Assembly: GCA_001724175.1 (NCBI GenBank)
Contig: MEDT01000042.1
Location: 22,605-86,604 of the forward strand
Direction of reading: 5' to 3'
Length of the DNA: 64,000 nt
Origin: Cytophagaceae bacterium SCN 52-12
Lineage (GTDB): Bacteria; Bacteroidota; Bacteroidia; Cytophagales; Spirosomataceae
Under the pieces are notes generated by a model that worked only from the letters and a program-made list of their open reading frames with translations, searched no databases and was not told the origin of the DNA. Each line of letters starts with the position of its first letter. Position 1 is the first letter of the stretch. Positions 10,524 through 57,880 of this stretch are shown here, piece after piece. A program made the position numbers and the translations under genes.

Positions 10524-10583
10524 CTCCCCGGATTTGCGAAATTCTATGTTCCACTTTAAACGTCCTGCTCATATGCTTTAAAA

Positions 10584-10686
10584 TCTCCATAAAAAAACCG
10601 GAAATGCTGGTAACATTCCCGGTCCCGATAGAATCGTAATGTCCTCCGGTAGTCTGGTAAACTACGGCCCTCAAGGGCCGGGAGGA
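10584..10686 (+). ncRNA. Candidate structured 5' leader of SusC (divergent copy of recurrent motif, L1)
   Basis: ACCGG-AA-ATG-CTGGTAA-CAT-TC-CCGGT apical hairpin at 10597-10623 preceded by ATAAAAAA; second hairpin CGGCCCT-CA-AGGGCCG at 10665-10680. Confidence 0.55.
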
Positions 10687-10729: not shown

Positions 10730-13700
10730 ATGCAAAAAAAACAAAACGCTTATGGTGTTCTTCCTGCCATTATGAGGATCACAATTCAACAATTTGTAAT
10801 GGCTGTCGTGTTTGTCAGCTTCTCCCACGCCGGTAATCTGAGCGCGCAGGAGCTGCTCAACAGGCGTGTTACCCTTTCGGTCTCAGACACCAGGGTTGAA
10901 TCTGTACTGGATATGATCACCAGGCAGACCGACGCACGCTTCGTATATAGCCCTGAGGTAATACGTGCAGAGCGGCCGGTGTCGATCAGCGTGAAAGAAA
11001 GCAGGCTGGAGCAGGTTTTGGGAATGCTGCTTGAACCTTTAGGGGTCGGCTATACCGTCACGACCCGGGGGACGGTATTGCTCAAAAAGACAGGAAAAGA
11101 GCTGAGCGCTGCCGAACCGGGGGAATCAGGCATGACCGCATTCGCGGCCGACCGCACCATAACCGGCAAAGTCACGGATGAAGAAGGCGAAGCGCTGCCG
11201 GGGGTAAATATCGTGGTGAAAGGGACTCAGAGAGGAACCATTACCGATGTCGATGGAACCTATAATCTCCTTATTCCCGAAGGGCCTCAAACGCTTATTT
11301 TTTCCTTTGTGGGGTATGTCTCCGACGAAGTCCCTGTAACCAGTGAAAAAGCCATAGTCGACATTACGCTGAAAACAGACCAGAAATCGCTGGAGGAAGT
11401 GGTGGTGATCGGTTACGGCGAACAACGCAAGGTGACGCTGACGGGCTCGGTAGCAAGCATCCGGGGAGACCAGATGCAGCGGAATCCTTCCACGAACCTG
11501 TCGGGCGCCATAGCAGGTCTGCTGCCGGGGGCGATCGCTTTAAGCCGCACAGGAGAACCCGGAAGAGATAATTCCAACATCCTCATCCGCGGAAGCAGCA
11601 CCACGGGGAATACAGGGCCGCTGGTGGTCGTCGACGGTATACAGGGCGCTACCGGCTGGGAGCGCATCAATCCCAATGACATCGAATCCATATCGATACT
11701 GAAAGACGCTTCGGCCGCCATCTATGGCGCCCGCGCTGCAAACGGCGTCATACTGATCACAACCAAAAGAGGCTCTTCGGGCAAACCTGTTATCAGCTAC
11801 ACCATGAACCAGGGATTTGTAAAGCCTACCCGGATTCCCCGGCTGGCCAGCTCTGCCGTATTTGCAGATTACCTGAACTACCTTTTCGAAAAATCGGGAC
11901 AGCCGCCCAGGTATACCGAAGAAGAAATTCAAAAATTCAGGGACGGCACCGATCCTGCCTACATAAACGAGGACTGGTACGGGGAGGTGCTCAAAAAAAC
12001 CTCCCGGCAAAACCAGCATAACCTGAACATCAGGGGAGGCGGTGAAAATATTAAATACTCCGTATCCGGTTCCTATTTAAACCAGGACGGCATGTTTAAA
12101 AAAGGAAGCCTGGATTTCAAGTCCTACTCGGTACGCGCCAACCTGGATGCGGGCATCAACCAGTACATTAACGTCGGTGTGGATTTAAACGCAGGCATGG
12201 ATGTCGGCAACTATCCCGCCTACAACACCGCTACGGCATTTGCGAGGCTCAGGCAGCTTCCTTACATCCCGGTTTACTGGGAAAACGGCCTGCCGTCAGC
12301 GGGAATTGAAAATGGTGAAAATCCCGCCGTAATGGTCACCGAAGCGACAGGCAATTTTAACGAGGATAAGCAGCGTTTCCAGATGAAACTCTCTTTTGAT
12401 GTAAAATTACCCTGGGTCGAGGGCTTGGGTACAGACGGCTATTTTGCCTTTATCAATGATAATACCTTTACAAAAAACTGGAGGACTCCCTGGACCGTTT
12501 ATGATTATGACCGCAACCAGGATGTTTACATCAGCAGGACGGGAGGAGGAATTACAAAGCCCGAATTGACCCAGGCTACCACCAATTTCAGGAATTCGCT
12601 GGTAAACCTGCGCCTGAAATATGCCAGGCAGTTCGACAGGCATTATGTGAATACATTTATTGCCTACGAGCAGATAGACGAGAAAAACAGCAACTTCTCG
12701 GCTTTCCGGAGAAATTATATTTCCAGCGCTATCGACGAATTATTTGCCGGCAGCCTCATCGACCAGTCTACAGGCGGAACCCGTTCTGAAACAGGACGCC
12801 AGAACTTTTTCGGGCGCATCAGCTATAACTTCTCCGAAAAATACCTGGTCGATTTCAACGCGAGGTACGACGGCTCCTCGGCATTTCCGAAAGGAAAAAG
12901 GTTTGGCTTCTTCCCGGGGGTTTCGGCTGCCTGGAGGATTTCCCAGGAAAATTTTCTACAATCGAACAAATTCGTTACAGACCTCAAGCTAAGGGCTTCC
13001 TATGGTAAGATGGGGAATGACCGGATCAACGCATTCCAGAACCTCATCCTTTATACTTTAGGGAACACCGGCTATCCTTTCGGAGCATCTTCAGCCGCTA
13101 CACAGGGACTGGTCGCCGGCGTCAGCCCGAACCCGAATATCACCTGGGAAGTAGCTGCTACTTATAATGCCGGCTTTGATCTCGACCTGCTGAACGGGCT
13201 TTTCGGGCTGAGCGTCGATGTGTTCAAACAAAAACGGTCTAACATTCTAACCACAAGAGACCTGGCAGTTCCTTACTATACCGGGTTGAAGCTTCCTAAC
13301 GAAAATATCGGGGTCGTTCAGAATAAAGGAGTCGAGCTCCAGCTGACCCATCTCAAAACCTTCAATGACTGGAGCCTGAGGATCAACGCCAATATGGCGT
13401 ACGCTAAAAGCAAAATATTGGATATCAGCGAAGCAGGCAATGTCCCTGAATGGCAGAAGGCTGAAGGGCACGCCCTTGGAGCCGGGCTCTACTATATGCA
13501 TGACGGGATTGCAAGAACACAGCAGGACGTCGATAACGCGCCTGACAGGAACGGTATGGTAGTGGGCGATCTTATGTATAAAGACATGAACCAGGACGGC
13601 AAAATTGATGCTGCCGACCGCGTACGTCTCGACAAAACAAATATTCCCAGGCTGACATACGGATTCTCCGCTTCGATAAGCTACAGGAACATTTCACTAT

Positions 13701-19346: not shown

Positions 19347-20513
19347 ATGACACCATCCGAAAGGCAGCGGCTGGAAAGGCTGGCCGGGAAATGGCTGGAA
19401 GGCAGCATTACCCCCGAAGAACAGGAAGAGTTCTCCGCCTGGTACAACCGCGGCCAGGACCTGCCGGCTGTTATCCCGCCAACATCGGCCGAATGCGAAA
19501 CGGAGCACCGCGAAAAGATCCTGTCGGGTATCCTTCATGCCATGCGCCGCCGGAAACCGGTCGGCTGGTGGAAACCCGGTATAGCCGCTGCGCTTATCCT
19601 GGTGGCAGTCGGCTACGGTGTTTACCTCTTGTTTTGTGAGTATCAGCACCGGGTGAATCATGCAGAAATAGCTATCTTCAACGACATTGCGCCGGGTACC
19701 GACAAAGCAACGCTTACCTTCGACGATGGCCGGTCGGTTACGCTGGACGAGCAGCAAAACGGGGTTTTGAAATTTGACGGAAGCGTCCGGATCAGGAAGG
19801 AAGATAGTATGGTGGTATACGAAACCACCGATTCGGAACAGGAAAAAACTCATTATAACATCATTACAACGCCCCGGGGAGGCCAGTACTCCCTGCGCCT
19901 GCCCGACGGAAGCACGGTATGGCTCAATGCCGCCTCTTCGCTCCGTTACCCCACCACCTTTACAGGGAGCAGCCGGACGGTGGAGCTCAGGGGCGAAGCT
20001 TTTTTCGACATTGTACCCTTTACAGCTTCAGACAAACCTGGCGCCGGTAAGATCCCCTTTATCGTAACCGTTAACGGGAAACAGACCGTAAAAGTGCTGG
20101 GCACCCGGTTCAACATCAACGGCTATGAAGACGAGCTGTCGGTCAAAACGACGCTGGTCGAGGGCAGCGTCGAGGTATCGGCCCAAAAGGGCGGGTCGGC
20201 CCTGCTCAAGCCCAACCAGCAATCGGCCCTGACCAAAACGGGCAAGCTCACCGTTACGGAAGACGCCGACCTGGAAGAGGCGATCGCCTGGAAAAACGGC
20301 CAGATACTTTTCAGAGATACCGATATCAGGGATATCATGCGGCAGATCGCGCGCTGGTATGATGTGGATGTCGTTTACCAGGACGACATCCCGGAGAGGC
20401 TTTTTAACGGCGGAATTTCGAGGAATTCAAAGCTTTCGAGCCTTCTGCAGATACTTGAAACCAGCGGTATCCATTTTAAAGTAGAGGGCAAACAGATTAT
20501 TGTAACACGATAG
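19347..20513 (+). CDS. FecR-type anti-sigma factor (L2)
   Basis: TTPRGGQYSLRLPDGSTVWLNAASSLRYPTTF, VELRGEAFFDI, VKVLGTRFNINGY, IRDIMRQIARWYDVDVVY. Confidence 0.93.
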   Translation: MTPSERQRLERLAGKWLEGSITPEEQEEFSAWYNRGQDLPAVIPPTSAECETEHREKILSGILHAMRRRKPVGWWKPGIAAALILVAVGYGVYLLFCEYQHRVNHAEIAIFNDIAPGTDKATLTFDDGRSVTLDEQQNGVLKFDGSVRIRKEDSMVVYETTDSEQEKTHYNIITTPRGGQYSLRLPDGSTVWLNAASSLRYPTTFTGSSRTVELRGEAFFDIVPFTASDKPGAGKIPFIVTVNGKQTVKVLGTRFNINGYEDELSVKTTLVEGSVEVSAQKGGSALLKPNQQSALTKTGKLTVTEDADLEEAIAWKNGQILFRDTDIRDIMRQIARWYDVDVVYQDDIPERLFNGGISRNSKLSSLLQILETSGIHFKVEGKQIIVTR

Positions 20514-20640: not shown

Positions 20641-20694
20641 TGCCCATAAAAATGCCGGAAGCGCTACCAACACTCCCGGCTGATCGTCAGGGCA
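20641..20694 (+). ncRNA. Candidate structured 5' leader RNA upstream of SusC (L2)
   Basis: TGCCC(20641-45) ATAAAAAT GCCGG-AA-GCG-CTACCAA-CAC-TC-CCGGC(20654-80) TGATCGTCA GGGCA(20690-94); closing stem perfectly complementary. Confidence 0.7.
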
Positions 20695-20744
20695 AATTCC
20701 ACAAAGTCCTATTTGTTACATTTTCACCTAACGTATACAAAACT

Positions 20745-23700
20745 ATGATTTTTTGTATTAGCAATGGTTCTGTTTCCCCAAAATTGAGCCATTCACGCCT
20801 CTTTAAAAGGTCTTCCGACCAGGTGCGGTTCACCGGAACCTCCCAAAAGAAAATCATCATGCAGATCAAGCTTATCTCTTTCTTCATTCTGCTGGCCGGA
20901 ATTCACGTGTTTGGCGAAAGCTATTCGCAGAAAGTTTCGCTTTCGGAGAAAAATGCATCCCTCGAAAAAGTTTTCCGGGAGATCAGGAAGCAAAGCGGCG
21001 TTATTTTCTGGTACGAAAGCAGCCTTCTGAAAAATGCCGGGAAAGTCGATATCCGCGTCAGGAACGCATCGCTGCCCGATGTGCTGAGCCGCCTGTTTGC
21101 AAACCAGCCTTTCAGCTACAGCATCGTAGAGAACACGGTGGTCATCAAGCCTAAAAAAATGCCGGCGAAAAGCGCTTCCGGCGCCGGTACGGACGAGTTC
21201 CCCGTCATGCCGGCCCGCGAAGCCACCACTACCGGGCAGGAATGGAGGACTCCGGCGCTCGTATCGAAAATCAAAATGCTCGCTGTGGAAACCATACCCG
21301 TCCGCGGAAGGGTTACCGACGAAAAAGGCGAAGGCCTCCCCGGTGTAAGCATCCTCGTCAAAGGCACCCAGCAGGGTACCGTCACGGACGGGACCGGCGC
21401 GTTCGTTCTGAACGTTCCGGACGAAAACGCCGTGCTGGTTTTTTCCTTTGTCGGGTATACAACCGTAGAGCGGACTGTCGGCAGGCAGACATTGCTCGAC
21501 GTTTCGCTGCAGGTCGATCAGAAAGCCCTGGAGGAGATCGTAGTGGTAGGTTACGGAGAGCAAAAGAAGGTGAACGTGATCGGCTCCGTTGCCCAGATCG
21601 GATCGGAGGCCCTGGAAAACCGGCCCGTGACCCAGCTCGCGCATGCCATTACGGGGCAGATGCCGGGCGTGACGGTAACCGTACGGTCGGGCCGCCCCGG
21701 CGCTAACCCCGGTACGGTGCGGGTAAGGGGGGTAGGCTCATTCGGCGCCACACCCGACGCCCTTGTCCTGATAGACGGTATCCCGGGGAATATGAATGAT
21801 ATCAACCCCGATGACATACAGACTATTTCTGTACTGAAAGATGCCTCTGCCGCGGCTATATATGGCGCCCGCTCGGCAAACGGCGTAGTCCTGATCACGA
21901 CCAAAACAGGTACGACCGGAAAAGTAGCCATTTCCTACAGCGGCTATACCGGTTTCAACAAGGCCACGAAGCTGCCCGACTTTGTAAACTCATGGGAATA
22001 TGCCGAGATGTACAACATTGCTTCGGGCACCAACAGCTTTACCGCCGACGATATTGCCAAATACCGCAGCCAGTCGGATCCTGACAACTACCCGAATACC
22101 CGCTTCCTCGAGCAGCTTTTTTCGGGGAAAGGCTTCCAGACCGGCCATACCGTGAACCTCAACGGCGGCAACGAGAAGGCCAGGTATTTCCTCTCTGCAG
22201 GCTATCTCAACCAGAAGGGGATTATCCCCAAAAACTCCTACGAGCGCTATAATTTCAGGCTGAACCTGGAAAACAATCTGGGCAGGAATTTCTACCTTAC
22301 CACGCGGTTGAGCGGCTCTTTCGACGAAAGGGACGAACCCCAGGCTACCGCCAATAAAGGCGGGGAGCTGACCGATCAGCTTATCCAGAATGCCATCAGA
22401 TACCCGGCCGTATTCCTCGGGCAGGCTTCTAACGGCGACTACGGGATCGGACCGGAAAGCGGAGGCACGCCGGTATCGTGGCTGGCGTCGGGTTCTTACC
22501 TCAGAAACCCGAGAACAAGGATCGGTACTAATTTTAAGCTTGACTGGAAGCCTGTCAAAGAGCTTGTGTTCTCGGCAATCGGCGGCTATAACTTCGATTT
22601 CATCGAGCAAACTTCCTACCGGTCGTCGCAAAAGCTCAATGAGCAGGTTTACCTCGGTCAGTCTAACCTGAATCAGTTCCGCAACAAAGGCATATTCAGG
22701 ACAGCGCAGTTCCTGGGCGAGTATTCCAAAGATATCGGTCGGACAAGACTGGACTTCCTCGTTGGTTATTCTTTTGAAAACCAGAAGCTTGACAGCTTGT
22801 CGGGCTACCGGCAGAATTTCCCCAGCAACGACTACACCTACCCGTCCATGGGCGGCGCCGACAACCAGCAGTTTAACGGGAGTGCGCAGGAATGGGCTAT
22901 ACAGTCATTGTTTTCGAGGTTAAAGCTGAACATAAATGAGAAATATCTTTTCGAAGGAACCCTGCGGTACGACGGCTCATCGAGGTTTCCGGATAGCAAC
23001 AAATATGCCGTATTCCCGGCTTTTGCCGCAGGATGGCGTATTTCCGAAGAAGAGTTCCTGAGAAATCTCCAGTGGCTGTCCAATTTAAAGCTGAAGGCTT
23101 CCTGGGGGATACTGGGTAACCAGAATATAGGCAATTACCCCTACCAGGTGGTATTGAACTCCGGCAGGAACTATCCTTTCGGAAGCGCGATCTCCACAGG
23201 CGCAGCCTATTCGACCTATAAAGATGCCAACATCAGATGGGAATCGACCGAAACCACGGATGTCGGGATCGAAGCCGGGTTCTTTAAAAACAGCCTGGGC
23301 GTGAACGTCACCTATTTCAGCAGGAACACGACCGACATTCTCTTCAAGCCTTCTTCCAGCGTGTCGACCATCCTGGGTGTCGGGATCAGCGAGACCAATA
23401 CCGGCCAGGCAACCAACAAAGGCTGGGAGTTTGATGCTATCTACCGGAACAGCTACCGGAAGCTCCAGTATTCCGTAAAAGGCAATTTCTCCATTATCAA
23501 CAACAAGGTAGTGACGCTCGGCCTGGGCAATGTTATCCAGCCCAACGGCCTGGTAGGGAACGGATCCGATCTTTTTGTGGGCTACCCGATGGAGATGTAT
23601 TACGGCTATGTGTCGGACGGCGTTTTCCTCGACCAGGACGATATCAGCTCATGGCCGACCCAAACCGCCGTTACGCCGAGCCCCCAGGCAGGAGATTTCC

Positions 23701-39748: not shown

Positions 39749-42700
39749 TTAGAAGGAAACATTAATACCAGCTGAGTACGTCCTGGGCATCGGCACATTG
39801 CCCGATTCCGGGTCCCAGCCTTCCCATTTGTCAAACGAATACAGGTTCCTGGCAGAGAGGTATATTTTCAGGTTGTCAAAGCCTTTAAATACCCCGGTGA
39901 AAACCGAATGGGGTAAGTTATATCCCACGGAAAGATCCTGTACCCGCACGAAGGATTTGCTGAAATAGCGTCCGTATCCACCGGCAAATGCCGAAGAAGC
40001 GGCTGTAATGGAGGCGTACTTATCGGAAGGATTTTCGGGCGTCCAGTAGGGAACGGAGCGCATGCCCCGCCGGTCGTAAACTCCGTTGTTAGGATGAATG
40101 AAGTCGGGAATATCGTCTATGTGCCCCAGCTCGCTTCTTAAAAATACGGCGGCAAATAAGTGCTTGCCGAAATTGAACTCATTTCGCAAACCGATCCTGA
40201 ATCTTGGTTCCCGCCACCCGATAAACCGCTTGTCGTCGAGGGAATACCTGCCGTCATTATTGATATCCAGCGCTTTGTAGTCTCCGGGTGTAAGCGCATA
40301 CCGTTTGGCTTCTTCGGCTTCATCCAGCTGCCATACGCCGACAATGTCATAGTCCCAAACCCGGTCGACCGCTTCCCCGATAAACCAGCGGTTTGTGATG
40401 TCGGACACTTCCTGTCTTACGATTTTCCCGTCTTTCTCCACTTCCCGGTAGTCGCCGAACAGGTGGATAATTTTGTTCCGGTTTAAAGAAAAAACGAAGT
40501 TGGTCCTCCAGGAAAATTTATCATGGTTGTAGTTGACCGAATTGACGGACAGCTCCACTCCCCTGTTCCGAAGCTCGCCGAGATTGGCTGCTATATTCTG
40601 AAACCCGGTTATGCGGGGCAGTACCCGGTTCATCAGAAGGTTGGTGGTAGTCATATTGTAAAAATCCAGGCTACCGTCTATCCTGCCGCCCGTTATCCTG
40701 AAATCCAGACCGAAATTTAAGGCGGTCGTCTTTTCCCAGGCCAGGCCCGGATTTGCCAGCGAATTATTGATCCCTCCTACCAGCACCTGCGAGCCGTCGG
40801 AATACAGGTTTTGCGAAAGTCTCGCCAATGCGGCATACCTGCCTATCTCGCGATTCCCGTTCGCTCCCCAGGAAGCGCGCAGCTTGACCAGGTCCAGGAA
40901 CGGCACTTTAAAGAATTTTTCCTCGGAGATCTTCCAGGCAAGCGCTCCCGCCGGGAAATTGGCTCTCGGGTTGCCCTGGCCAAACGCCGAATACCCGTCC
41001 CTCCTGACGGACAAGGTCAGCAGGTATTTGTCTTTAAGCGCGTAGTTTAACCTGGCCATCAGCGCATCGCCCGTAGAGTAGTTGTCACTGTTGGACAGCA
41101 CCTGCCGCGTCGCAAACTGCAGTGCATGGTAGCTCAGGTTTTCGTTTGGCGAGAATCCCTCTGCAACCAGGTTTGAGCCCCAGGATTGAAACTTTTCCAG
41201 GTTATATAAAAAAGTAAAATCGAACGACTGGCCGGCTGTTTCTTTCCGCCAGGTGAGCAGGTTATCGACCATCCATTCGTATACCCTGTCCTCATTCCGA
41301 GTACCTCTGCCCTTTACATTAAAACCGGTTGGCGTCGACGAAGGGTAAAAAGCGTAGTGATAGGTTCCGGAAAGCCTGGGTTGGAACGACAGCTTGTAGT
41401 TAAACCCGAAAGGTAGCTTCAGGTTGGCGTACAAAGAAGCGAAGATGGAGTTGGTTTTATTTTTATTATGATGCAGCTTATGCTCCATGAGGGGGTTTAC
41501 ATCGCTGATAAAATCATTGGGGAACCACTTCAGAGATCCATCTTCTTCATACATCGACCCGTAGGGGCTGGCGCTCAGCATCCGGGTTACAGACGCAGGC
41601 AGCGCGCTGTTGTCCTGGCTGGTAAACTGCGCATTTATGCCCAGGTCTATGAACGGGTTGATCCTGGCATTTGCATTGATCCTGGTTCTCAGGATAGAAA
41701 AGTCATCGCCGACTACAGGGCCTTTGTTGTTGGTATACCCCATCGACCAGTAATACGAGATGTTGTCGGTGCCCCCTCCGACGCTGAGATCGTAGTTTTG
41801 CTTTACGCCTTTCCTGATCACCCTGTCGTACCAGCTCTCTTCATGCCCGCTGAGGTAGTTTGCCATTTCCGTCGGAAAAAAAAGCAGCCTGTTGAGCCAT
41901 TCGGTTACGATGTCCGGGTTCGGATTGGCGTTAAACCCGTACCATTCCGCTACGCTGATTTGAGAAGGGAGCTCGCGGGGGTCGTGGAAATAATATTCCG
42001 GCTGATTGGGCCGCAGCTTTCTCTGCCAGTCCCTGCGGAAATCGGTGTATTCTTTTCCCGATAACGGCCTGATACCCGGATTCGTCACTTCCGAGACACC
42101 TGTTTCCATCGAAAAATTAACCTTCGGTTTTCCTTTGGAGCCTTTTTTGGTAGTAATGAGAATGACCCCTGAGGCGGCACGGGCTCCGAAAACCGCTGCC
42201 GAGCTGGCATCTTTCAGAATGTCGACGGATTCGACATCGGAAGGAGCTATGTCGCGGATATTCCCGTTAAAGATCACGCCGTCCAGAACCACCAGCGGGT
42301 TGGTATTTGCGTTCAGCGAAGTCCTCCCGCGTATTTCCATCGACCCGCCCCCGGCTGCCGAGGTAGCCTGGGTGGAATTGAACCCCGCGACAGTACCCGC
42401 AAGCATATCCGTTACCTGCGTCATCTGCTGGTTTTCAAAGTTTTTCCCGCTCACCCTGACTACCGAGCCGGTCAGGTCGCTCTTTTTCTGAACGCCATAC
42501 CCGACCACTACCAGCTCATCGAGCGCCTTTGTGTCGACCGCCATTTGGATTTCCAGGCTCGTTTTGTTCCCCACCACCAGCTCCTGGCTCACGTACCCGA
42601 CAAAAGAGAAGATCAGCGCCGCTTCTTCGTCCGGAACCAACACGGAGAAGGTACCGTCGATATTGGTAATCGTTCCCTGCTGAGTCCCTCTGACCAGGAT

Positions 42701-43168
42701 ATTCACACCCGGCAGCCCCTCTCCTTTTTCGTCGACGACCCTGCCCGAAATTTTCCGCTCATCCACCTGCTTCCCCGTCCCCGGAATAACGACCGATTTT
42801 TTATCAACGGCCTCTAGCTCGCTGATCACGTAAATATTGCCAACCTTCCGGAACGTAAGGTTGGCGGGCTTCAGCATCGCTTTCAGCCTGGCCTCTACCC
42901 CAGCATCGCTTTCCAGGTCGACCCGCACCTTCCGCTGCTTTATCCTGCTGCCTTTGTACATAAAATAAATGTCGTGCTTTTCCTTCAGCCGGTCCAGGGC
43001 TACATTCAAAGGTTCGTATAGCTGTCCCTGGTAGCTTGCCGGTTTCCCGGGATTTTTCTCATGGTGGCTGGTAACGGCCAGCTCCTGGGCAAAGAGGTCA
43101 CAGGCGGGTATACCTATGCTCAGGGAGCATAGCAGCGTATACCGAAACATCCGCAAGGTTGCTTTCAT
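39749..43168 (-). CDS. SusC/RagA TonB-dependent receptor with STN-like domain (L3)
   Basis: ISGRVVDEKGEGLPGVNILVRGTQQGT; DELVVVGYGVQKKSDLTGSVVRVSGK; C-terminal TYSAGINVSF. Confidence 0.94.
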   Translation of the reverse strand: MKATLRMFRYTLLCSLSIGIPACDLFAQELAVTSHHEKNPGKPASYQGQLYEPLNVALDRLKEKHDIYFMYKGSRIKQRKVRVDLESDAGVEARLKAMLKPANLTFRKVGNIYVISELEAVDKKSVVIPGTGKQVDERKISGRVVDEKGEGLPGVNILVRGTQQGTITNIDGTFSVLVPDEEAALIFSFVGYVSQELVVGNKTSLEIQMAVDTKALDELVVVGYGVQKKSDLTGSVVRVSGKNFENQQMTQVTDMLAGTVAGFNSTQATSAAGGGSMEIRGRTSLNANTNPLVVLDGVIFNGNIRDIAPSDVESVDILKDASSAAVFGARAASGVILITTKKGSKGKPKVNFSMETGVSEVTNPGIRPLSGKEYTDFRRDWQRKLRPNQPEYYFHDPRELPSQISVAEWYGFNANPNPDIVTEWLNRLLFFPTEMANYLSGHEESWYDRVIRKGVKQNYDLSVGGGTDNISYYWSMGYTNNKGPVVGDDFSILRTRINANARINPFIDLGINAQFTSQDNSALPASVTRMLSASPYGSMYEEDGSLKWFPNDFISDVNPLMEHKLHHNKNKTNSIFASLYANLKLPFGFNYKLSFQPRLSGTYHYAFYPSSTPTGFNVKGRGTRNEDRVYEWMVDNLLTWRKETAGQSFDFTFLYNLEKFQSWGSNLVAEGFSPNENLSYHALQFATRQVLSNSDNYSTGDALMARLNYALKDKYLLTLSVRRDGYSAFGQGNPRANFPAGALAWKISEEKFFKVPFLDLVKLRASWGANGNREIGRYAALARLSQNLYSDGSQVLVGGINNSLANPGLAWEKTTALNFGLDFRITGGRIDGSLDFYNMTTTNLLMNRVLPRITGFQNIAANLGELRNRGVELSVNSVNYNHDKFSWRTNFVFSLNRNKIIHLFGDYREVEKDGKIVRQEVSDITNRWFIGEAVDRVWDYDIVGVWQLDEAEEAKRYALTPGDYKALDINNDGRYSLDDKRFIGWREPRFRIGLRNEFNFGKHLFAAVFLRSELGHIDDIPDFIHPNNGVYDRRGMRSVPYWTPENPSDKYASITAASSAFAGGYGRYFSKSFVRVQDLSVGYNLPHSVFTGVFKGFDNLKIYLSARNLYSFDKWEGWDPESGNVPMPRTYSAGINVSF

Positions 43169-53500: not shown

Positions 53501-53983
53501 GACGCCCGGGAGTCCCTCTCCTTTTTCATCTGTAACCTTTCCTGTCACGATATGGGCGAAACCCGGCCGCAGACTCCCAAGCTTCGATTCGATCTGAGGT
53601 TCTTTTACCGCGCCGTTCTGATTCCTCCTGATCACGATATTATGCCTGAAAATTTTGTAGGTCAGCGGGAGCCCTTCAAAGAGCCGTTTGAGGGTCTCTT
53701 CAATGGATTCATGCCGAATGCTGACCGACACCCGGTGGTCAACCGGGATTTCCATCTTGTCGTATAGAAAAAGATAGTCAGTTTGCTTCTCTATAGCCTT
53801 GAGAGCGGATTCCAGCGTAATATTTCTCTTTTCCAGGGAAATTTTCTGGCTGTAACCCGTACCCCATACCTGGGTGAGGATCACTAGCAGGAAAAAGGTC
53901 AGCAGTTTCATTTTCATCAACAAGTTAGGCGGTATGATCAAATCATACCATGCCTTGTGGCAGGATATGGGTTTTATCTCCAT
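50552..53983 (-). CDS. SusC/RagA TonB-dependent receptor with STN domain (L4)
   Basis: STN (KISLEKRNITLESALKAIEKQTDYLFLYDKMEI), VTGKVTDEKGEGLPGVSILVKGTQTGM, EEIVVVGYGGTQKVNLTGAIS. Confidence 0.94.
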   Translation of the reverse strand: MEIKPISCHKAWYDLIIPPNLLMKMKLLTFFLLVILTQVWGTGYSQKISLEKRNITLESALKAIEKQTDYLFLYDKMEIPVDHRVSVSIRHESIEETLKRLFEGLPLTYKIFRHNIVIRRNQNGAVKEPQIESKLGSLRPGFAHIVTGKVTDEKGEGLPGVSILVKGTQTGMISDVDGSFSIEVPDQNAVLVFSFVGYLSQEVAVGDKTSLEVNLRVDARSLEEIVVVGYGGTQKVNLTGAISTIQYDEKLDNRPITNASQALGGTASGVWVSQNSGKPGSDGAQIRIRGWGTLNNSNPLIIVDGVEGSFEQLNPSDIQSISVLKDAASAAIYGSKAANGVVLITTRMGTGTDKMQVNVNSYVGMQSLGRHYSLINNSAQSMELTNAAMINNGSSPLFPQELIDRYKQGTDAFRYPNTDWFRELFRNALIQQNNLSVSGVSGKTSTYLSLNNLNQQGLVPNTNSRRLGVRANVDTKINSWFKLGGRLSFLNRLSKEPYSDITYGSLGRVFEMLGGAAPYIAPYDRMGRFGSVEVFDQAGAMLYDNRNPLIDAANGRTTTQDNLVTINATADINLTEDLLFKTTFASNGAWSLVDRYNSSVFGYTDSGIETITKNYNREGLEMNRGADYSMNTNFFSTLTWSKAFEGHDFKLLAGFQNESNKIQTLYARRNNPPKEGLTQVDAGTSGIQGTGNMNRLRILSYFGRLNYALKDKYLFEANFRADGSSRFRQGNRWGYFPGVSLGWRVSEEAFLRYSDLISNLKLRASWGKLGNQNVASYSPYLTIIDQSNLLSNSFGGTFAPGMAITSLVDENISWEQTSTLDIGVEAGFWNDRISVEADYFRKNTTDILVQLPIPLVLGGLTAPFENKGAMQNDGVEIILNYRNLASGTDRLKADLGFNLTYINNKVTDFGTERSPDQLFLIREGYSFRELYGYKTEGIYQSDAEAKEHMHANGFVPRAGHLKFQDVNKDGRLDYQDKQSLGNTIPRFTYGISPSFKYKRFDLNILLQGVSGVKLFNRSLFTDLSFENRVIQTRWLDAWTPENSGSDLPMARFDDSWNNADSDFWVVNGSFMKVKNLQLGYGLPENITSRLKLQKAYLYLNAQNLWTIASKEYDGYDPERNTFDAGARVYPIPRILSFGVNLNF

Positions 53984-57345: not shown

Positions 57346-57371
57346 GGTGCCTTCGACTCCGCTCAGGCACC
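57346..57371 (+). repeat. Palindromic repeat copy R1
   Basis: GGTGCCTTCGACTCCGCTCAGGCACC, 7-bp terminal inverted repeat GGTGCCT/AGGCACC. Confidence 0.9.
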
Positions 57372-57422
57372 GGGGCGATTCTACTAACATGTGTTGGCCC
57401 CTAAGCAAATATAAAAATCAAA

Positions 57423-57447
57423 GGTGCCTGAGCGGAGTCGAAGGCAC
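57423..57447 (-). repeat. Palindromic repeat copy R2 (inverted relative to R1)
   Basis: GGTGCCTGAGCGGAGTCGAAGGCAC on + strand, reverse complement of R1 core. Confidence 0.9.
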
Positions 57448-57469
57448 GATACTATACTTCTATATAAAA

Positions 57470-57880
57470 ATGAAAGGATGGATGTACATACTGAAATGTA
57501 GCGATGGAAGCTACTATACCGGAAGCACAAATAATCTGGAATTAAGACTAGCACAGCATCAGAGCGGCTTAGGGGCGATACACACAAGTAAATTCTTACC
57601 GGCTGAACTTGTTTACTATGAAGAATTTCCACGAATTGATATGGCTTTTTACAGGGAAAAACAAGTACAGGGCTGGAGCAGAAAAAAGAAGGAAGCGCTC
57701 ATTGACGGCAAGACCGAAAATCTTAAAAAAGCCGCAGAATGTATAAACGATACACACTTTAGGAATTGGAAGGGTGCCTTCGACTCCGCTCAGACACCAG
57801 AAGGAGATTTCACTCAGACACCGGAACGAGATTTCACTCAGGCACCGGAACGAGATTCCACTGAGGATCACTGTGCCTGA
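57470..57880 (+). CDS. GIY-YIG nuclease family protein (YhbQ/UPF0213-like single domain)
   Basis: MYILKCSDGSYYTGSTNNLELRLAQHQSG...AFYREKQVQGWSRKKKEALI: GIY/YIG-equivalent, Arg and Glu motifs. Last ~35 aa are repeat-derived. Confidence 0.88.
   Translation: MKGWMYILKCSDGSYYTGSTNNLELRLAQHQSGLGAIHTSKFLPAELVYYEEFPRIDMAFYREKQVQGWSRKKKEALIDGKTENLKKAAECINDTHFRNWKGAFDSAQTPEGDFTQTPERDFTQAPERDSTEDHCA

Follow-up and report, generated by a model that had tools for sequence, protein, structure and literature searches.

A hairpin that recurs upstream of susC genes in Cytophagaceae bacterium SCN 52-12 is, as judged from its sequence and surroundings, very probably an intrinsic terminator that ends a cis-encoded antisense RNA transcribed opposite the susC leader. 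The sequence-only reading had assigned this hairpin to the susC mRNA. The hairpin is real, but its function most likely belongs to the strand opposite susC, on which each copy most likely acts as an intrinsic terminator. The sequence statistics show which strand carries the structure, the shape of the terminator, the promoter box and their coupling, and also that these features are nearly confined to SusC genes of one type, ECF sigma - FecR - SusC(STN).

Hairpin copies in the window and their gene settings

The window, i.e. the whole stretch of 64,000 nucleotides analysed, contains the L2 sequence at 20641-20694 letter for letter as quoted earlier, and similar hairpins were found at all three of the other loci named (L1, L4 and L5). 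When the window was scored with the hairpin model, the four expected places reached 36-42 bits, and the rest of the sequence 17.3 bits or less. The predicted antisense terminators are located at 10588..10625 in L1 (minus strand; 42.2 bits), 20645..20682 in L2 (minus strand, hairpin plus U-tract; 37 bits with covariance model R1, compared with 13 on the plus strand), 54059..54096 in L4 (plus strand, the L4 susC being on the minus strand; 38 bits) and 59256..59293 in L5 (minus strand; 35.9 bits). The distance from hairpin to ATG, given earlier as ~45-60 nt, was measured as 64-106 nt.

The susC gene of L2 (20745..24272, plus strand) encodes a protein with an STN domain and is preceded by the fecR anti-sigma gene (19347..20513, plus strand); the other susC genes start at 10730 (L1), 53983 (L4, minus strand) and 59381 (L5). 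In L1, L2 and L4 the genes ahead of susC encode an ECF sigma factor and the anti-sigma factor FecR, and the SusCs of these three loci carry the STN signalling domain (Pfam). TIGR04056 confirms the SusC identity for L2 and L5. The susC of L5 is preceded by FecR, and the ORF at 57347-57880 ahead of this FecR gave no sigma family match. A fifth SusC of the window (39749-43168, minus strand), with FecR 35 nt upstream, has neither the hairpin/antisense element nor an STN match, and is a natural negative case within the window.

Strand specificity of the structure

Read on the opposite strand, each copy consists of a 9-12 bp stem, a loop of ~7 nt and then a U-tract. A stable hairpin with a U-tract immediately after it, on the strand transcribed, is the layout of intrinsic terminators. 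Several details described earlier for the susC strand change their meaning accordingly. The "3-bp" apical stem of L2 (GCG/CAC) is not intact on that strand, as it contains a C.A mismatch, and the bulges described as "AA" and "two pyrimidines" include A.C mismatches that are G.U pairs on the other strand; on the minus strand 10 of the 10 stem pairs form, two of them G.U. The A-rich stretch taken for a 5' linker is present, not as a linker of the leader but as the U-tract of the minus-strand terminator. Folding of the 54-nt L2 stretch gave -27.8 kcal/mol (z -3.9) on the minus strand versus -17.3 kcal/mol (z -2.0) on the plus strand, and the minus-strand fold of the region of the predicted L2 antisense RNA (20652-20735) had a z of -5.1. 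Over 29 loci of the same genome the mean z was -4.1 (minus) versus -2.2 (plus).

The strand was assessed more broadly with the upstream regions of 56 SusC genes of this genome and 80 loci of named relatives, using a hairpin score that counted G.U and A.C equally and so favoured neither strand. Among 90 strong hairpins read on the susC strand, an A-tract preceded 42 on the 5' side and a T-tract followed 4 on the 3' side. At the imperfect stem positions of the 42 A-tract hairpins, the susC strand shows 47 A.C and 7 G.U combinations (p=2e-8; 27 versus 2 when counted by locus), which means that these positions pair on the opposite strand, and not on the mRNA strand as would be expected of a sense-strand cis-regulatory leader RNA. 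The opposite strand also folds better in 36 of the 42 hairpins, by 7 kcal/mol on average (p=4e-7). The side of the U-tract, the G.U/A.C asymmetry and the folding energies all assign the selected structure to the strand opposite susC. With the coupled antisense promoter described below, they point away from a structured element within the mRNA leader of susC.

The covariation reported earlier is real, but it is that of the minus-strand stem. In an ungapped alignment of 29 minus-strand hairpins, 96.2% of the stem cells are paired (34-52% in slid controls) and two-sided changes occur at 10 of the 11 stem pairs; these figures are descriptive and not independent proof, since the hairpins were picked for complementarity.

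With regard to the loops, two loci of Larkinella (L082 and L083) share the same stem and carry inverted loops (gtgcgaa and ttcgcac, respectively). Mimicry of an anticodon loop (U-turn) or of a T-loop was considered, as the loops fit N-U-N-N-N-R-A/C on the susC strand, and was rejected on the grounds that orthologous loops are inverted and the strand is the wrong one.

A predicted antisense promoter at the susC start codon

Promoters recognized by sigma-ABfr of Bacteroidota carry TAnnTTTG at -7 and TTTG near -33 (PMC7366714). We found this housekeeping -7 box opposite susC, joined directly to the start codon of the gene, so that the susC strand reads CAAAnnT|ATG. All four window copies have it: TAGTTTTG in L2 (CAAAACTA on the plus strand; 20738..20745, minus strand), which takes in the first base of the susC ATG; 10723..10730 in L1 (minus strand; CAAATTTA on plus); TATATTTG at 53983..53990 in L4 (plus strand); and 59373..59380 in L5 (minus strand; CAAAGATA on plus).

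The box accompanies the hairpin. It is present in 16 of 24 hairpin loci of this genome and in 16 of 28 hairpin loci of relatives; where the hairpin is lacking, it was found in 2 of 16 STN-type SusC genes, in none of 14 non-STN SusC genes and in 3 of 52 other loci of relatives. Control genes had it in 1 case out of 242 (p=6e-19 for the hairpin loci of this genome against the controls). In about a third of these own hairpin loci the box is degenerate. A -33-like CAAA peaks at spacings of 19 and 20 nt from the -7 box, inside the gene (11 and 10 of 39 loci, respectively, compared with 0-2 of 39 at the neighbouring gaps of 17, 18, 21 and 22 nt). This box is weak, being clear in only about a third of the loci.

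The predicted span from promoter to terminator is 69-138 nt, with a median of ~118 nt (29 loci). For L2, a start placed from the -7 box and an end at the terminator would give an antisense RNA of about 89 nt (20645..20733, minus strand).

Distribution within and across genomes

The covariance model built from the 29-hairpin minus-strand alignment holds no positional information. When applied to the 5.1-Mb genome, it matched 33 distinct places at E<=1 (38 matches including palindromic duplicates), 31 of them immediately ahead of a SusC gene and on its antisense strand, without exception in one orientation. For L165, included in the 31, the assignment relies on the start-codon context, as its contig ends there. 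The remaining two are located at a contig end and beside a tRNA. The view of the sequence-only reading that the RNA element is recurrent, covarying and specific to susC is supported. The Rfam covariance models, against which that reading had proposed a cmscan check, gave no relevant match in the window or in 20 loci, with E=1 as the limit.

In five other genomes (those of the Runella, Dyadobacter, Spirosoma and Pedobacter loci and a Chitinophagales MAG), 28 of the 30 matches fetched were antisense and upstream of a SusC, and a Bacteroidales sample yielded nine FecR-SusC junctions with the A-tract, the hairpin and the -7 box at the ATG. A search of a 119-genome sample of the phylum under strict filters returned one match each in 8 genomes besides the window's own, 2 of the 8 at a SusC; the covariance model alone lacks specificity at phylum scale.

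Within the genome, the L2 hairpin (20648-20680) is 91% identical over 33 nt to G000:C257:9893-9925, at another SusC locus (L205). From the sequences, this likeness possibly reflects cross-talk or recent copying.

Relation to known antisense RNAs and proposed mode of action

DonS, an antisense RNA of Bacteroides, was reportedly first described by Cao and co-workers (2016, J Bacteriol). Members of the DonS family are cis-antisense RNAs of 78-128 nt, divergent from susC homologues, whose expression they lower (PMC7366714, Ryan et al. 2020). The antisense layout, the size and the susC setting match this description, and we therefore take the hairpin to be, most likely, the terminator of a DonS-type antisense RNA, likened to DonS by its published description. 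Like the DonS/PUL antisense RNAs of Bacteroides, the predicted RNAs are structured, divergent from susC and antisense to its 5' region, which they overlap from the opposite strand (31 of 33 places in this genome and 28 of 30 in the others). The predicted lengths of 69-138 nt agree with the published range, and the candidates have a housekeeping promoter of their own (TAnnTTTG / TTTG), with the -7 box in 16 of 24 loci versus 1 of 242 controls and a weak -33 box. B. thetaiotaomicron has 32 PUL-associated antisense RNAs (PMC10994844, Ryan et al. 2024); here there are at least 31 candidate terminators. The candidates differ from the DonS reports in that they are known from sequence alone and come from Cytophagales, Pedobacter, Chitinophagales and Bacteroidales loci, and the start-codon-fused promoter and the uniform terminator shape are features described for them here. 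FopS and GibS, described together with RbpB, resemble the predicted RNAs in that they, too, are small and act on the 5' region of susC mRNA (PMC11697453). They are, however, encoded in trans in multiple copies, share a seed and have an Rfam entry (PMC11697453), whereas each of the RNAs predicted here lies opposite its own susC, with differing stems and no Rfam match.

In the mechanism we propose, a sigma-ABfr-type housekeeping promoter opposite susC, with its -7 box on the start codon and, at some loci, a -33 TTTG within codons 6-8, would start antisense transcription about 12 nt upstream of the ATG. Transcription would proceed across the susC leader in the direction of fecR and end at the hairpin and its U-tract. 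The RNA presumably made in this way would keep the receptor gene off, as DonS does in Bacteroides fragilis, by base-pairing with the leader of susC almost as far as the start codon, by colliding with sense transcription, or by both, and the off state would last until, with the ECF sigma factor released, sense transcription prevails. The earlier proposal that the element controls TonB-receptor expression thus probably survives, but through an antisense RNA and not through a leader structure. Repression is not general among the published antisense-PUL pairs, since the B. thetaiotaomicron RNAs show positive as well as negative correlations with their susC (PMC10994844).

Mutual collision of the two transcription units might be the main mode of action, the RNA itself being of little import. 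We give this perhaps one chance in a few: a promoter fused to the start codon and a terminator that confines the antisense unit to the leader would suit it; the strong folding of the RNA (mean z -4.1), dispensable for collision alone, speaks against it. It appears quite unlikely that the element is instead a cis-regulatory structure of the susC mRNA leader, riboswitch-like or a site for a protein or sRNA, as the sequence-only reading held. The element is indeed positioned in the leader, and the closing stem of the L2/L4/L5 subgroup forms on either strand (L5 with a T.G wobble on the susC strand). The A.C/G.U asymmetry, the folding and the model scores nevertheless favour the other strand, the inverted orthologous loops of L082 and L083 speak against recognition of a sense loop, and Rfam offers no match.

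Least probable, and scarcely to be expected, is a feature of the DNA itself (a palindromic operator or a cruciform) or an ordinary terminator unrelated to susC. Short perfect dyads of variable sequence would fit, as would the one genome-wide match that adjoins a tRNA. Palindromes in DNA, however, yield no G.U/A.C strand bias, stems that differ between loci imply no shared operator, and 31 of the 33 genome places are at a SusC, always in one orientation.

If the antisense RNA reading is correct, antisense control of susC would not be peculiar to gut Bacteroides; it would be an accessory of susC loci of the FecR type in several Bacteroidota orders. The antisense unit could be annotated from sequence by means of the 38-nt model and the -7 box at the start codon, and each genome would gain a list of predicted antisense RNAs, one uptake system apiece. 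It would also caution that a "leader" with covariation can be a structure of the other strand, the G.U/A.C asymmetry being decisive.

A putative short ORF upstream of the terminator

Between FecR and the antisense terminator, the susC strand carries TATG, often as (GC)CTATG, at 25 of 31 loci of this genome. In 24 of these 25 loci an in-frame stop follows within 8 codons, compared with 6 and 10 for the other two frames (p=5.5e-8), and the loci of other genomes gave 16 of 21 versus 5 and 6 (p=3e-4). Ordinary same-strand intergenic regions showed no frame bias (8, 6 and 7 of 14). Judging by these sequences, the sense leader seems to contain a translated micro-ORF, although the TATG could be the trace of another signal instead. 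The putative micro-ORF is 1-11 codons long, and its stop lies about 6-39 nt ahead of the hairpin base, adjoining the 3' end of the predicted antisense RNA. The window copies, each ending in a stop codon, are MIRTDT in L2 (20615..20635, plus strand), MFHFKRPAHML in L1 (10546..10581, plus strand, with an inner ATGCTTTAA at 10573), MAVKAKSP in L4 (54108..54134, minus strand) and MTKKPGSP in L5 (59209..59235, plus strand). Further copies occur at L157-L170, L179-L199, L240 and L251, and examples from Bacteroidales are GCCTATGGAATAA and GCCTATGGAGTAA.

A limited literature search returned no paper evidently on such a micro-ORF, which is possibly a new feature. In the antisense control of replication of plasmids such as R1 (CopA/CopT-tap-repA), a structured antisense RNA lies opposite a leader that contains a short ORF, and translation of the leader peptide is coupled to that of the regulated gene. 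The arrangement predicted here is similar in combining a structured antisense RNA with a leader containing a short ORF, and differs in that the micro-ORF lies just outside the antisense target. Tentatively, and with rather less than even confidence, we suggest that the micro-ORF, the end of the antisense RNA and the start-codon-fused antisense promoter form a leader module shared by ECF-sigma/FecR susC loci of Bacteroidota, in which ribosomes on the micro-ORF set the balance of antisense and sense efficacy. Ribosomes stopping there, beside the 3' end of the antisense target, would tune the antisense RNA or sense transcription. If true, this would be a translation-linked switch, so far uncharacterised.

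Closing stem and other inverted repeats

The complementary closing stem described around the hairpin is mostly present in the subgroup resembling L2, L4 and L5; it is not general, as a score of >=14 was reached by 17% of the 42 hairpins versus 4.8% of shuffles. A terminated antisense RNA would not include its second arm, and the terminator leaves this stem unexplained. The "GUC" of the 3' linker is absent from several leaders, e.g. L039. At 20641-20694, L031, L061 and L064-L066, the closing-stem arms read TGCCC/GGGCA, AGCCC/GGGCT, TTCCG/CGGAA, CCCGAA/TTCGGG, CCTGA/TCAGG and GCCTGAA/TTCAGGC.

A supposedly conserved stem ahead of the start codon (GTTTTTG...CAAAAAC) was discarded: it can be seen in some leaders, but its overall frequency did not exceed that of shuffles (26% versus 22%). 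Upstream of the L5 fecR, a long imperfect hairpin is located at 57354-57440 (minus strand). Its match to an Rfam microRNA model falls below threshold and is a chance match in Rfam terms, yet the repeat is a strong inverted one.
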